DNA from: Mucilaginibacter sp.
GTDB lineage: Bacteria > Bacteroidota > Bacteroidia > Sphingobacteriales > Sphingobacteriaceae
Assembly (NCBI RefSeq): GCF_025359345.1
Contig: NZ_JANYGQ010000026.1
Coordinates: 124,001 to 188,000, forward strand
Length of the DNA: 64,000 nt
Reading direction: 5' to 3'
A model generated the notes under the pieces. That model did no database searches. It saw nothing but the letters and a program-made list of their open reading frames with translations, and was not told the DNA's origin. Shown here in pieces: positions 35,478 to 41,004 of this stretch (positions are counted from its first letter, which is position 1; the number at the start of each line of letters is the position of its first letter). The position numbers were made by a program, and so were the translations under genes.

Positions 35478-36092
35478 ATGAGACACGGTAAAAAATTAAA
35501 CCACTTAGGCCGCACAAACAGTCACCGCAAGGCGATGATGAGCAACATGGCCACTTCGCTTATCTTACACAAGCGCATCACTACAACATTAGCAAAAGCA
35601 AAAGCTTTACGCGGTTATGTTGAGCCAATTCTTACAAAAGCAAAAAACGATACTACGCATTCACGCCGTACAGTATTTAGCTATCTGCAGGATAAAGATG
35701 CTGTGAGCATCCTGTTCCGCGAGATTGCTGAGAAAATAGCTACCCGTCCGGGCGGTTACACACGTATCATCAAAATGGAAAACCGTTTGGGTGACAACGC
35801 TGAAATGGCAATGATTGAGTTAGTTGATTACAACACTGTTTACGGTACCGACGTTGCTAAAACTGAAAAGAAATCAACCCGTCGTCGTGGTGGTTCTGCT
35901 AAAGCTAAAACTGCTGAGCCTGCTGTTAAAGCTGCTCCTGTAGCCGAAGCTGTTGAAGTTGCCCCGGTTGCTGAAACACCAGTTGCTGAAGCCCCTGTGG
36001 CAGAGGCACCGGTAGCTGAAGCTCCTGCTGCTAAACCAGAAGCTCCTGAGGCTCCTGCTGCAAATGAAGAAAATGCAGAAAAAGGCGAATAA
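35478..36092 (+). CDS. rplQ: 50S ribosomal protein L17 (bL17) with Ala/Pro/Glu-rich tail
   Basis: 204 residues against about 127 in Escherichia coli. The bL17 core is normal to about residue 130: [89 protein letters not shown]. Then a basic linker ([14 protein letters not shown]) and about 60 residues of Ala/Pro/Val/Glu repeats (PVAEA units), ending acidic. Similar extended L17 tails occur in Bacteroidota. Last gene of the cluster; a strong terminator follows 32 nt later. Confidence 0.98.
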
Positions 36093-36201: not shown

Positions 36202-36735
36202 TTAGGTTGAACTTCTAATCAACCGGAACGTCATAAGCCCATCTGCATCCACCCCAACTTCTTCAAATCCGGATTTAATCAGTATTCTTCTTGATGGCAG
36301 GTTATCCTGGTAGGTATGCACAATAACAGATCCAACCCTTGCATCAGTAAAAGCCCAGTTGCTTAATAATTGCAGCGCCTCGGTCGCGTAGCCTTTGTTT
36401 TGGTGCTGCTCATCAATCATGTAACCTGTTTCTGCCTCGCCGTTCTCGTTCGGTTCACCATTAAAGCCCATGCCACCAACGGACGTGTTGATACTTTTGA
36501 GCACTATTTCCCAATCTGTGTACCATTTAAATGCATTAGGGTTTGCAAGAGTTTTTGGCAGCCAAAAGTTTATCATCGCATCGTCTATCTCTTTTTGATA
36601 AAATTCGCTTACCTGGTAATTTGATGTCTTTAGGCCGAGCGCCTGCTCCATTACGGCCCTGCTGTTGTGTAATAACTGTAATAATTCGTGTGTTAACGGT
36701 ATCATTAGCAACCGTTCCGATTCGATAAAAAACAT
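36202..36735 (-). CDS. GNAT family N-acetyltransferase (RimJ/RimL type)
   Basis: 177 residues. Acetyl-CoA-dependent transferase fold: start FIESERLLMIPLTHELLQLLH as in RimJ-like enzymes, a central strand VGGMGFNGEPNENGEAETGYMIDEQHQNKGYATEALQLL with the acetyl-CoA-binding Q-x-x-G-x-A loop, and the closing TYQDNLPSRRILIKSGFEEVG. The substrate may be an N-terminal amine of a protein or a small molecule; sequence does not decide. Convergent with rplQ and not part of an operon. Confidence 0.88.
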   Translation of the reverse strand: MFFIESERLLMIPLTHELLQLLHNSRAVMEQALGLKTSNYQVSEFYQKEIDDAMINFWLPKTLANPNAFKWYTDWEIVLKSINTSVGGMGFNGEPNENGEAETGYMIDEQHQNKGYATEALQLLSNWAFTDARVGSVIVHTYQDNLPSRRILIKSGFEEVGVDADGLMTFRLIRSST

Positions 36736-37176
36736 TTGATTTTTGAAATTAATAACAATAAAAAACTTTGTCCAATTTATTAATTGAAGTTTTAGCCGGG
36801 TGTATTTGGCTAATTGTTATACAATTCCAGGCAGTGTAGTCTGCCTTTTGAGTGTGTTGAGTTGCAGAGGCGTTTTATTTATACCCAAATATAAATATTT
36901 ATTGATAGCAGAACGATGTTTTGCTGCGTATAAGAAGAAACTCCGGCACCTGGCTTATGAAATTAAATTGCACAGAAAATTTTGTTTTGTAGGATAAGTT
37001 TATGTAGTTTTATCTTAACCTAAACGCAACACAATGCCTCAACCGCTTTTTTGCTTTGGGCCATTTTCATTGAATTTTTTATTGATTGATCAGTTAAATC
37101 AGCTATAGATCAGCCTCAAAAAGGTAGTGAGCCTTGTACCTTTTAAAAACCAGGGCCAGAAAACAAATATCAAATT
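36736..37176. other. Intergenic region; weak promoter candidate for the Cys-rich peptide
   Basis: 441 bp, AT-rich, without a gene I can support. TTTG (36981-36984), 20 nt, TAGTTTTA (37005-37012) fits the Bacteroidota promoter with one mismatch and would give the downstream peptide gene a long leader of about 160 nt. Confidence 0.4.
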
Positions 37177-37368
37177 ATGAATTCCAACTTAGGAAAACCC
37201 CTTTCTAAAAAAGAGATGAGAGCAGTTCAGGGCGGCAAATTACCAGGCTGCGCTATGCACGGACAAAACGGCGTATCGTACAGCCAAGGCTGCTGCACTG
37301 GATTATTCCAATGCGCTGCAACCAAAACCTGTTTAAATCCAGGTGAATGCCCTTGTCCAACTTGCTAA
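37177..37368 (+). CDS. GG-leader, cysteine-rich putative RiPP/bacteriocin-like precursor peptide
   Basis: 63 residues. The first 20 (LGKPLSKKEMRAVQGG) match the Bacteroidota natural-product precursor leader of the L-x-x-x-E-M-x-x-(V/I)-x-GG type, with the double glycine at 19-20 as the expected cut site for a C39-peptidase transporter. The 43-residue core has eight Cys (25, 39, 40, 46, 52, 58, 60, 63), Gly, Pro and no long hydrophobic run. This suggests a disulfide or thioether-linked product. No ABC transporter, radical SAM enzyme, lanthionine synthetase or peptidase is nearby, so the gene is an orphan in this window. Modification and activity are inference. Convergent with the secreted protein at 37423. 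Confidence 0.75.
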   Translation: MNSNLGKPLSKKEMRAVQGGKLPGCAMHGQNGVSYSQGCCTGLFQCAATKTCLNPGECPCPTC

Positions 37369-37422: not shown

Positions 37423-37968
37423 TTATTCATTTTCGACAATGGCTCTGCCAAGTAATTGCCAATTGCCGTTTTTAAACTCGCACAGTAATAAATCTATCCT
37501 CCCGCATACCATCCCGCAAATAAATGACTCGCCTATTAAAACCCGCGAATTGTTTTTATTTAAAAAAAGCGGCTCTGAAAAAGTGTATACCATAAATGGA
37601 GCGTTTTGTACTTCTTTATGCTCGACATAATCGTCGGTAACAAATTTAACCTTCAACTTTGAGTGCTTTTTTTTCCAATCGGTTTGCATCAGCATACGTG
37701 GTACGGTTTTAAAGGCCTCAACTTCACATGGAGAGAGCATATCCTTTATACATAAGTTGGGGATGTTTTTAAGGGATTCGTCGACTAAACTTTGCTTTTT
37801 TAGATAACTGGTATCGTAAAACACGCCTGCGTTACTTTTTCTTTCAAGATGGGTAATATGATCTTTCTGAATAAGCCAGGTTAAGAGGGAGTTGGTTTTC
37901 GCGAGTTCGTTTTGACCGCGGGCGACAGACGATAGCAGTATAAATGCAAATAATAGAAATGCTTTCAT
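37423..37968 (-). CDS. Hypothetical secreted protein
   Basis: 181 residues with a signal peptide (MKAFLLFAFILLSSVARG, cleavage before Q). The mature part has six Cys (NLCIKDMLSPCEVEAF, ESFICGMVCGRIDLLLCEF), a Lys-rich middle and a closing LLLCEFKNGNWQLLGRAIVEN strand pair. The pattern resembles short Bacteroidota periplasmic proteins of the same layout but I recognise no family. It is convergent with the Cys-rich peptide, with 54 nt between the stops. There is no sign that it processes the peptide. Confidence 0.65.
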   Translation of the reverse strand: MKAFLLFAFILLSSVARGQNELAKTNSLLTWLIQKDHITHLERKSNAGVFYDTSYLKKQSLVDESLKNIPNLCIKDMLSPCEVEAFKTVPRMLMQTDWKKKHSKLKVKFVTDDYVEHKEVQNAPFMVYTFSEPLFLNKNNSRVLIGESFICGMVCGRIDLLLCEFKNGNWQLLGRAIVENE

Positions 37969-38180: not shown

Positions 38181-40094
38181 ATGTCTAAAATAATTGGAAT
38201 CGACTTAGGAACAACTAACTCCTGCGTTGCAGTAATGGAGGGTAACGAGCCCGTAGTTATTGCCAACAGCGAGGGTAAACGTACTACGCCGTCTGTAGTA
38301 GCTTTTATCGACAACGGCGAACGTAAAGTAGGGGACCCTGCGAAACGCCAGGCTATTACAAATCCTACAAAAACTATTTCATCAATAAAACGCTTTATGG
38401 GTAACCAGTTTAACGAGGTTACCAAAGAGGCTGCGCGCATGCCATACAAAGTGGTTAAAGGCGATAACAATACCCCGCGTGTTGAAATTGGTGACCGCAT
38501 GTACACCCCACAGGAAATCTCGGCCATGATACTTCAGAAAATGAAGAAAACAGCCGAAGACTTTTTGGGCCATGAAGTTACCGAAGCGGTTATTACCGTA
38601 CCGGCTTATTTTAACGATGCACAGCGCCAGGCCACTAAAGAAGCAGGTGAAATTGCAGGCTTAAAAGTTCGCCGTATTATAAACGAACCTACTGCTGCTG
38701 CCTTGGCTTACGGCCTTGACAAAGCACACAAGGATATGAAGATTGCCGTATTTGACTGCGGTGGTGGTACACATGACGTTTCGATCCTTGAATTAGGTGA
38801 TGGCGTGTTTGAAGTAAAATCAACCGATGGTGATACACACCTTGGTGGCGACGACTTTGACCAGGTGATCATTGACTGGATGGCTGACGAATTTAAGAGC
38901 GACGAAGGTGTTGACCTGCGTAAGGACCCAATGGCTTTACAACGCTTAAAAGAGTCTGCAGAAAAAGCTAAAATTGAGTTGTCGAGCTCGGCTCAAACCG
39001 AAATCAACTTACCATATGTAACTGCAACTGACGGCGTGCCTAAGCACCTTGTTAAAACTTTAACCCGTGCCAAATTTGAGCAACTGGCTGACAGTTTGAT
39101 CAAACGTACTATCGAGCCTTGCAAAACTGCTTTGAAAAATGCAGGTTACAGCACATCTGATATCGACGAAGTGATTTTGGTAGGCGGTTCAACTCGTATA
39201 CCTGCTATACAGGAAGCTGTTGAGAAGTTCTTTGGTAAAGCGCCTTCAAAAGGTGTTAACCCCGATGAGGTTGTTGCTATTGGTGCAGCTATACAAGGTG
39301 GTGTATTAACCGGCGAAGTAAAAGACGTGTTATTGCTTGACGTTACCCCGCTTTCATTAGGTATTGAAACTATGGGTGGTGTAATGACCAAACTGATAGA
39401 ATCAAACACTACTATCCCGACCAAAAAATCGGAAGTGTTCTCTACAGCGTCTGACAACCAGCCATCAGTTGAAATTCACATCCTGCAGGGTGAGCGCCCG
39501 ATTGCTTCGGCTAACCGTACAATAGGCCGTTTCCACCTGGATGGTATTCCACCAGCACCTCGTGGCGTGCCACAGGTTGAGGTAACTTTTGATATCGATG
39601 CTAATGGTATACTACACGTATCCGCAAAAGATAAAGCAACAGGTAAAGAACAAAAAATCCGTATCGAAGCATCTTCAGGCTTAACTGATGCCGAGATCAA
39701 AAAGATGAAGGACGAAGCCGAAGCAAATGCTGATGCTGACCAAAAGGCAAAAGAAGAAGTTGAAAAACTGAACGGTGCCGATGCCCTGATCTTCTCGACT
39801 GAAAAGCAGCTGAAAGAATACGGCGATAAAATTTCTGCAGATAAAAAAGCTCCGATTGAAGAAGGTTTGAAAAAACTGAAAGAAGCTTATGCAGCTAAAA
39901 ACTTCAGCGATATTGATGCAGCCCAGGCTGAATTAAGCAACGCATGGAATGCAGCGTCTGAAGAGATGTACAAAGCGACAGGTGATGCAGGCCAGCAAGG
40001 CGGCGCACCAGGTGCTGACGGTGGCGCAGGCGCGCCTCATGCTGAAGGCAACGCTGACACAGTTACAGATGTTGACTTTGAAGAAGTAAAATAA
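38181..40094 (+). CDS. dnaK: Molecular chaperone DnaK (Hsp70)
   Basis: 637 residues, full length. ATP-driven chaperone working with DnaJ and GrpE. The nucleotide-binding domain begins [18 protein letters not shown] and includes [46 protein letters not shown] and [12 protein letters not shown]. The usual phosphate loop reads DLGGGTFD, so CGGGTHD is a variant with Cys and His. The substrate domain follows from [20 protein letters not shown], then the helical lid. The Gly/Ala-rich tail ends FEEVK. Monocistronic, between a sigma-54-like promoter and a terminator; no dnaJ or grpE adjacent. Confidence 0.99.
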
Positions 40095-40266: not shown

Positions 40267-40677
40267 TCAATCCTTAATTTCGTTCACTGCGAAATCGAAA
40301 ATGTTGAAAATTTTGTCAATATCAAAATCGCCATCTTTTGGTAAATTTATTGTCGCGATGCCCCCAAAATCTACCTGCCAAAATCCGCCATTCTTTACTA
40401 TTTCATCGCCCAACAGTCGGTAGTCCGATGACCTAAATTGTGAGGTAAGAAAAAAACGCCGGGTTATAAACCCGGACTCTTTGGTAATCTTAATAATTTC
40501 ATGGCAGCCTTCTTCATTGGTACGGGTTTTAAACTCAGTTCCAAGAGTTAAACGGCAATTGAATATGTCATTATCAATACATTTAAATTGATTTTCGGCA
40601 AGTTGCTCCACATAAATTGTTGAGGTGGATTTTTCTCTTTTGTCGTAGATTTTTATTTGAACCGGCTCATTTTGCAT
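40267..40677 (-). CDS. Hypothetical protein, possibly DUF4265-like
   Basis: 136 residues, cytoplasmic. The layout (CIDNDIFNCRLTLGTEFKTRTNEEGCHEIIKI in the first half, then SDYRLLGDEIVKNGGFWQVDFGGIATINLP) has the GTEF and GG-x-W patterns of DUF4265-like proteins, but the match is by eye only. It is followed on the same strand, upstream, by the HicB-like gene with an 80-nt gap. Role unknown; possible association with HicB is positional. Confidence 0.6.
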   Translation of the reverse strand: MQNEPVQIKIYDKREKSTSTIYVEQLAENQFKCIDNDIFNCRLTLGTEFKTRTNEEGCHEIIKITKESGFITRRFFLTSQFRSSDYRLLGDEIVKNGGFWQVDFGGIATINLPKDGDFDIDKIFNIFDFAVNEIKD

Positions 40678-40757
40678 ATCGGTTGTTTAAATTTATCGGA
40701 AAACGCTGGTAGTTAGTATACAAAGTAACCATACTATCAACTTTATGCGTTCGTTGC

Positions 40758-40982
40758 TCATGTAAAAAGTTGCAGATTATATTCGAGCACGTCTTCGTCA
40801 GAGGGGATTTCTTCGCCATGCGCCTTTAAACTTTCAATATACAACTCAATGGCTTCTCTGGCATTTAGTTTGGCTTCCTCCAAGTCAACCCCATAAGTAA
40901 CACAGCCCGGAAGCGCTGGCACGTTTACTGTATAGCCGCCTTCAGGCTCGGGTTTAAGCAGAATTTTGTAGGACAATGACAT
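40758..40982 (-). CDS. HicB-like antitoxin (solitary)
   Basis: About 74 residues from the MSLSYK start at 40982; an in-frame ATG 15 bases upstream would add MVALN. The partial RNase H-like fold of HicB is clear: YKILLKPEPEGGYTVNVPALPGCVTYGVDLEEAKLNAREAIELYIESLKAHGEEIP. HicB neutralises HicA, a dsRBD-like mRNA interferase. No HicA frame is present upstream (only 22 bp to the GH31 stop) or in the 80 bp downstream, so this copy is solitary. No C-terminal DNA-binding domain is attached. Confidence 0.85.
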   Translation of the reverse strand: MSLSYKILLKPEPEGGYTVNVPALPGCVTYGVDLEEAKLNAREAIELYIESLKAHGEEIPSDEDVLEYNLQLFT

Positions 40983-41004
40983 ATTTAAAGCTACCAAATA
41001 TTAG

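Follow-up and report, generated by a model that had tools for sequence, protein, structure and literature searches.

A probable secreted disulfide-rich peptide with a GG leader in Mucilaginibacter and a candidate pseudoknot before its gene

Introduction

How could an eight-cysteine peptide with a GG leader be cleaved, exported and oxidised when nothing around its gene seems able to do so, and what would such a peptide be for? This question is raised by a small gene of Mucilaginibacter sp. located in a stretch of 64,000 nucleotides, positions 124001-188000 of contig C2 in genome G000, which is referred to here as the window. The gene probably encodes a secreted, disulfide-locked, bacteriocin-like peptide of a large family. 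The first-pass annotation had called it an orphan and proposed looking for further copies of its leader in the same genome. The gene is an orphan locally only: no machinery adjoins it, but the leader pattern occurs at five other places in the genome, and a C39-ABC/HlyD exporter and a VKOR/thioredoxin fusion lie 76-86 kb away.

The precursor peptide

The open reading frame at 37177-37368 on the forward strand translates to MNSNLGKPLSKKEMRAVQGG followed by KLPGCAMHGQNGVSYSQGCCTGLFQCAATKTCLNPGECPCPTC and a stop codon, in agreement with the 20-residue GG leader and 43-residue, eight-cysteine core first annotated. The cysteines of the precursor are C25, C39, C40, C46, C52, C58, C60 and C63, with CC, CPC and CPTC motifs in the core, and three internal stops are found on the strand opposite the frame. 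The features are the following:

37177-37236, forward strand: leader peptide, 20 codons, LSKKEMRAVQGG type, with predicted cleavage after GG
37237-37365, forward strand: core peptide, 43 residues with 8 Cys, predicted to be disulfide-bonded
37366-37368, forward strand: stop codon, from the translation

A scan of the precursor against Pfam and NCBIfam gives sub-threshold matches only (E 0.024-0.083), to models of bacteriocin and lantibiotic leaders, and the curated cut-offs of TIGR01847, NF047798, TIGR03949 and Pfam Mersacidin are not reached. The leader region aligns to NF047798 (leader_Chryseo, bacteriocin-like protein) with 13.7 of 23.5 bits and to TIGR01847 (bacteriocin_sig) with 13.6 of 15.7 bits, both below cut-off. 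Solved structures match the peptide only at E 0.76 or worse, and AlphaFold2, run on 3 sequences, reaches a pLDDT of 52 with no confident fold for the peptide. The leader pattern itself is found at six sites in the genome, namely the window gene and five others, and at none when the pattern is reversed.

The family and its locus

The closest ortholog, 97% identical, is found in Mucilaginibacter flavidus RT5R15, and another, 68% identical, in M. phenanthrenivorans. Over 63 codons, the window gene and its M. flavidus counterpart show 5 synonymous and 2 non-synonymous differences, a sign of constraint, though one judged from small numbers. In an alignment of 17 sequences, the window's included, M1, G6, G19, G20, C25, G38, C39, C40 and C52 are invariant, and conservation of the cysteine pattern in close relatives, chosen beforehand in the first-pass annotation as the test of its proposal, is thus what was found. 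A chance open reading frame is ruled out by the M. flavidus ortholog, the few amino-acid changes and the invariant residues.

A search with the single protein gives matches at E 1 or better in 140 of 399 genomes of the bacterial family, which are mostly weak and chance-like, many of them with stops. The profile built from the 17 sequences, one of which comes from another genus, detects the family at E 1e-3 or better in 16 of 149 Mucilaginibacter genomes. Twelve of these are strong (best E 7.4e-25 or better) and four are weak (best E 3.9e-6 to 2e-4); in three of the four weak genomes (G403, G385, G240) the inspected loci carry other GG peptides. Tandem arrays reach four copies (G101).

Ten of the 12 strong genomes have the gene between rplQ and dnaK, both named from their protein sequences rather than by a family search. 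In G433 it stands beside dnaK and a GNAT gene, with rplQ absent among the listed genes, and in G062 it is found elsewhere. The neighbours in the window are:

35478-36092, forward strand: rplQ (ribosomal protein L17), upstream border of the conserved locus by synteny
36202-36735, reverse strand: GNAT acetyltransferase (PF13302), a common but not obligatory neighbour, cluster of 6 loci
37423-37968, reverse strand: convergent gene for a 181-aa protein with a signal-peptide-like start, as seen by eye
38181-40094, forward strand: dnaK, downstream border of the conserved locus by synteny

The 181-aa protein belongs to no Pfam, NCBIfam or PADLOC family, and a 61% identical relative adjoins the peptide in G433. 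Its role as an immunity protein is unlikely, since no such gene is present between the peptide and dnaK in M. flavidus (L047). An anti-phage system was also considered and rejected, given no PADLOC match. Further downstream, at 40667-40997 on the reverse strand, a small ORF (40758-40997), presumably HicB-like, is overlapped by a short ORF that is possibly its decayed partner.

No exporter, oxidase or recognised immunity gene adjoins the window gene. On balance, the gene is best explained as coding for a precursor whose disulfide-rich product would be oxidised, cleaved and exported in trans, most likely to act as a narrow-spectrum class-II-type bacteriocin. A secreted signalling peptide would use the same export and disulfide chemistry and be sensed by kin instead of killing competitors, and an unlinked gene between housekeeping genes, lacking a recognised immunity gene and preceded by a structured 5' UTR that suggests control, would suit it. 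No obvious receptor or kinase gene is seen by eye next to the peptide in the listed loci, however, and genomes with many divergent paralogs, tandem arrays of up to four copies and a variable core resemble an arsenal more than one signal, which leaves signalling an unlikely, if serious, alternative.

A probable pseudoknot before the gene

The mRNA before the gene appears, from its sequence and that of its relatives, to fold into an H-type pseudoknot, a covarying element just upstream of the start codon that had been missed at first reading. A further helix is possible upstream:

37121-37156, forward strand: H-type pseudoknot, presumably within the 5' UTR, whose 3' end is 20 nt from the ATG
37087-37112, forward strand: possible second helix, tentative and by eye, 37087-37091 with 37108-37112, upstream of the pseudoknot

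Two interleaved helices make up the window element, AAGGTA GTGA GCCTTG TACCTT TTAAAAAC CAGGGC. S1 pairs 37121-37126 with 37137-37142, L1 spans 37127-37130, S2 pairs 37131-37136 with 37151-37156, and the A-rich L3 covers 37143-37150. The possible second helix reads TGATC/GATCA in the window and TGATTT/AAATCA in M. flavidus.

The upstream regions of the 17 family members share a block, segmented by eye, that ends 17-24 nt before the ATG, and two of the 17 (G101d, G231b) do not fit the pseudoknot. In an alignment of 22 distinct elements (A3), 81.7% of cells are paired, versus 74.4% in shuffles and 29-50.4% in slid versions. Both sides have changed in 9 of 12 pairs and in 25 cells, neither of which is reached in 500 shuffles, with the caveat, raised as a warning by the tool, that relatedness alone can beat such shuffles. 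Among 24 distinct elements delimited by eye, 131 of 144 cells are paired in S2 and 117 of 140 in S1; whole-strand re-dealings reach neither (0/2000), and column shuffles reach the S2 count in 0/2000 and the S1 count in 4/2000. Only 8 of 20 form the outermost pair of S1. S2 is written as GCCTTG/CAGGGC, GCTTTG/CAAAGC or ACCCTG/CAGGGT, for example, and as GCTATA/TATAGC in G071, which belongs to another genus.

As a sequence pattern, the element is found 20 times in the 149 genomes, 16 of them directly before a GG peptide and in the same orientation: 13 are the family itself and three are other GG peptides, one of these in the window's own genome (C34:211282). The reversed pattern gives four hits, the same as the four off-class hits of the true pattern.

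An Rfam scan of the window detects no family at gathering score, and the pseudoknot before the gene is new within the literature searched, which covered few subscription journals and preprints. Several Bacteroidetes motifs, together with an L17 downstream motif, are catalogued in the part of the source consulted (PMC2864571). The name of the latter recalls the position of the locus after rplQ; Rfam scans, with such families, give no match at threshold.

Pseudoknot-like elements before other GG-peptide genes

A scan for the same topology covered 90 nt upstream of each of 131 genes for GG peptides with Cys, 130 from the genus and one from G071. A score of 12 is reached by 67 of the 131 (51%), compared to 4.8% of 393 dinucleotide shuffles, the form of the scan and this threshold having been set after the type A elements and a first scan, so that only the second-genus test below had prefixed settings. 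A control with wrong (parallel) pairing reaches the score in 18/131 (14%), more than the shuffles do, and other genes of the same loci in 24/274 (9%), with 15/274 for their own shuffles. In 10 of the 67 scoring rows S2 ends less than 16 nt from the ATG, probably as a shifted pairing of type B, and members with very short L1 loops are, by eye, missed by the scan. Once the upstream regions are clustered and represented by random members, the score of 12 is reached by 18 of 61, compared with 3.6% of 305 shuffles.

Many LSRAEMKNVLGG-type peptides are preceded by a type B element, CGCC-AAA-TTGCCG-GGCG-TGGTTA-CGGCAA, whose sequence is unrelated to type A. With 39 of its 52 members aligned, 21 cells (0/500 shuffles) and six pairs (5/500) are doubly changed. 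The second genus, g14, is that of G071 and belongs to the same bacterial family. There, with settings unchanged, the pseudoknot signal is weaker but present: 13 of 58 genes for cores with at least two Cys reach 12, versus 4.5% of 375 shuffles, as do none of the 17 genes for cores with fewer than two. Rfam scans of ten other loci give nine matches at E 1 or better, all under gathering score, the best being BSnc120 on the minus strand of L142 (E 2.6e-5, 35 of 114 bits).

Several further features were observed in these genes. The leader codons of many type B genes, such as CTCAGCAGAGCTGAG, have a 6-bp hairpin written into them, with 6/6 pairing in 31 of 210 distinct leader strings and in 0.2% under synonymous resampling, and the Leu codon CTC occurs 73 times of 210, against a 3.6% background. 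The leader of the window gene starts CTTTCT and is outside the hairpin-bearing leaders. Some type B upstream regions, for instance AAAGGAGCATGCACTTT...ACATGC, contain a second interleaved helix pair further upstream (AAAG/CTTT, GCATG/CATGC), which by eye may be a tandem pseudoknot. In the second genus, Cys-free GG peptides with a LNLNEMKEINGG-like leader and a Ser/Gly/Asn-rich core (L232, L234, L247, L250, L256, L258-L260) also fit the leader pattern, and all score below 12 in the pseudoknot scan.

Could the element be read as DNA? An operator or promoter with two interleaved inverted repeats would look similar, as inverted repeats are also typical of DNA-binding sites, and the excess of the wrong-pairing control over the shuffles indicates that inverted or mirror-like repeats add background. 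This is nevertheless improbable, because partner bases change together (in the 9 pairs and 25 cells given above), the same topology recurs with unrelated sequences, and the spacing to the ATG is held at 17-24 nt, by eye, in the 17 family members.

The apparent RNA pseudoknot, present in many unrelated members, points to a common switch, and one architecture with free sequence would suit an element with a structural role, or one read by a protein, better than a pocket for a metabolite. More tentatively, with the case still falling short of even, these 5' pseudoknots might constitute a new class of cis-acting RNA that keeps its architecture while its sequence drifts and that links the translation of many disulfide-rich secreted peptides, encoded at dispersed sites, to one shared state of the cell. 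If so, orphan precursors across the chromosome would be made only when a common oxidase and exporter can handle them, and what they respond to could be, for example, the redox state of thiols, the occupancy of the exporter or an RNA-binding protein common to all.

Even cysteine numbers

The leader search pattern, which says nothing about cysteine, was run on the 149 Mucilaginibacter genomes and is found in 50 of them. The loci read cover all but 14 of the 150 hits listed and yield 138 distinct complete GG peptides, 137 from the genus and one from G071. Five are Cys-free. The remaining 133 cores (132 of the genus) have four Cys in 11 cases, six in 101 and eight in 21, and an odd number in none, a result in line with the disulfide-rich character first proposed for the peptide. 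In seven complete hits set aside because they lacked a usable ATG, the Cys counts are 0, 0, 0, 2, 4, 8 and 8. Clustering (BLAST E 0.01) groups the 133 cores into 64 clusters, six of which mix even numbers (6/8 in five and 4/6 in one), and 64 clusters with no odd count are far from chance, though related peptides are not independent. In the second genus the number is even in 55 of 59 Cys-containing cores, and the four odd ones comprise two short cores (16 and 31 residues) and two related three-Cys cores. Even-only counts support pairwise disulfides and argue against one-Cys chemistry, such as lanthionine or sactionine bridges.

Knottin-like C-C-CC-C-C cores also occur among GG peptides. Three stand in tandem in G403 (L096:5691-6549), between a VKOR-C39like-Trx fusion and a C39 ABC exporter, and single ones are found in G279 (L100:7964-8143) and in the second genus (L244).

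Export and oxidation machinery

Searches with PF03412 in the own genome and with PF07884 in the genus, this genome included, give no match inside the 64-kb window, so the earlier statement that nothing in view could modify or export the peptide stands, and its supposition of a transporter elsewhere is matched by a C39-ABC/HlyD system 86 kb away on the same contig. Four C39 matches are present in the genome. Two are C39-peptidase ABC transporters of 725 and 735 aa: the 725-aa exporter at C2:247657 is followed by HlyD and has a six-Cys GG peptide just upstream, and the second, at C24:70031, adjoins a radical SAM protein. The other two are C39-like/VKOR/thioredoxin fusions of 532-534 aa, each beside a GG peptide. 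On the contig of the window gene, the distance is 76 kb to the VKOR fusion and 86 kb to the exporter.

In all five aligned fusions, two of which are orthologs, the C39-like domain is without the DCGP block that holds the catalytic Cys and its NHFVV histidine site is altered, and the VKOR CVLC/CVFC and thioredoxin CxxC motifs are kept. Substrate binding by a catalytically dead C39 domain is known from HlyB, and the C39-like domain of the fusion, its catalytic Cys lost, may act as a leader dock.

PF03412 is common in the genus (107 of 149 genomes) and occurs in 12/12 strong-family genomes versus 95/137 others (one-sided Fisher 0.016, phylogeny ignored). For VKOR the numbers are 11/12 versus 61/137 (one-sided Fisher 0.0016, phylogeny ignored), the one strong-family genome without it being 61% complete, and 41/50 leader-positive genomes versus 31/99 (Fisher 3e-9, phylogeny ignored). 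Among the 150 leader hits listed, a VKOR gene lies within 15 kb on the same contig for 51 and not for 99, links interrupted by the end of a contig being left uncounted, and service in trans therefore seems usual in the genus. One unlinked peptide, G291:C15:73424, begins with MKTEFGKSLSRAEMK, as do leaders of the orphan type, and has a core akin to those of the PCAT/exporter-linked peptides.

The radical SAM protein raises another possibility, a RiPP crosslinked by thioethers, for which the genome offers a radical SAM/SPASM maturase at C24:69k beside the second C39 ABC transporter. Its best model is that of the TIGR04463 (rSAM_vs_C_rich) system, at 195.5 against a cut-off of 525. Next to the pair lies a Cys-rich precursor of its own, whose leader differs (L053:6348-6575), and L053:6348-10233 on C24 (precursor, radical SAM/SPASM protein and C39 ABC exporter) is a separate RiPP-like cluster. 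No link of the radical SAM protein to the window gene was seen, and strictly even Cys counts argue for Cys-Cys pairing, making this alternative very doubtful. Equally implausible is a cytosolic Cys-rich metal-binding peptide with an incidental GG, which the CC, CPC and CPTC motifs would suit, as the GG never varies in the family, unrelated cores are preceded by the same leader motif and metal binding needs no even Cys numbers.

Comparison with known systems

Bacteroidetocins, class IIf bacteriocins of Bacteroidales (Coyne et al., 2019), have, according to the parts of their description consulted (PMC6671954), a GG leader of 15-16 aa, a C39 ABC transporter, a thiol oxidoreductase and a mature peptide of ~42-48 aa that contains at least two Cys and starts with K after the GG, its disulfides being inferred there as well. 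As far as those parts allow a comparison, the window peptide resembles them in its GG leader, ~42-residue product starting with K, even Cys number, and C39 exporter and thiol oxidoreductase in the genome, and with 43 aa and 8 Cys it falls within their definition of size and cysteines. It differs from what is described there in having 8 Cys rather than 4, a leader of 20 rather than 15-16 aa, biosynthesis genes that are not adjacent (no C39 or VKOR match in the window, the nearest at 76-86 kb), a VKOR-C39like-thioredoxin fusion as oxidase, and a 5' pseudoknot, which the consulted description does not contain. On leader length and gene neighbourhood, the peptide is not classed as a bacteroidetocin, though it would work like one.

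Small H-type pseudoknots are also known as riboswitches, such as preQ1-I, SAM-II and SAM-V. The element shares with them a short H-type pseudoknot before the start codon and, in type A, an A-rich loop. It differs in having no Rfam match at gathering score and in ending ~20 nt before the AUG, and its stems vary freely, which leaves no obvious conserved ligand pocket.

Proposed mechanism and significance

For the bacteriocin-like reading, the following mechanism can be proposed. The H-type pseudoknot ~20 nt before the AUG, whose structure is backed by covariation, would tune or gate translation. The LSKKEMRAVQGG leader would be recognised in trans by the C39-peptidase ABC exporter at C2:247657 with HlyD, both of which are encoded and presumably paired with it, and this exporter would cut after the GG and export the 43-residue core. 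The VKOR-thioredoxin fusion, whose domains are evident, would pair the cysteines, with its C39-like domain putatively docking the leaders. The mature peptide, with up to four disulfides, would then act outside the cell, most likely on related Bacteroidota, a target suggested by the precedent of the bacteroidetocins, by the copies in tandem and by a core that varies while its Cys scaffold stays fixed.

The apparent orphan is thus one of a large group of Mucilaginibacter peptides with GG leaders, whose cysteines are gained and lost in even numbers, and a second genus in the bacterial family is similar. These genomes frequently encode an oxidase whose fused C39-like domain has no catalytic Cys and may serve to dock leaders. 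Knottin-like C-C-CC-C-C cores are possible stable scaffolds, and the 5' pseudoknot, a testable candidate for an RNA regulator, provides a handle to find silent peptides and switch them on.
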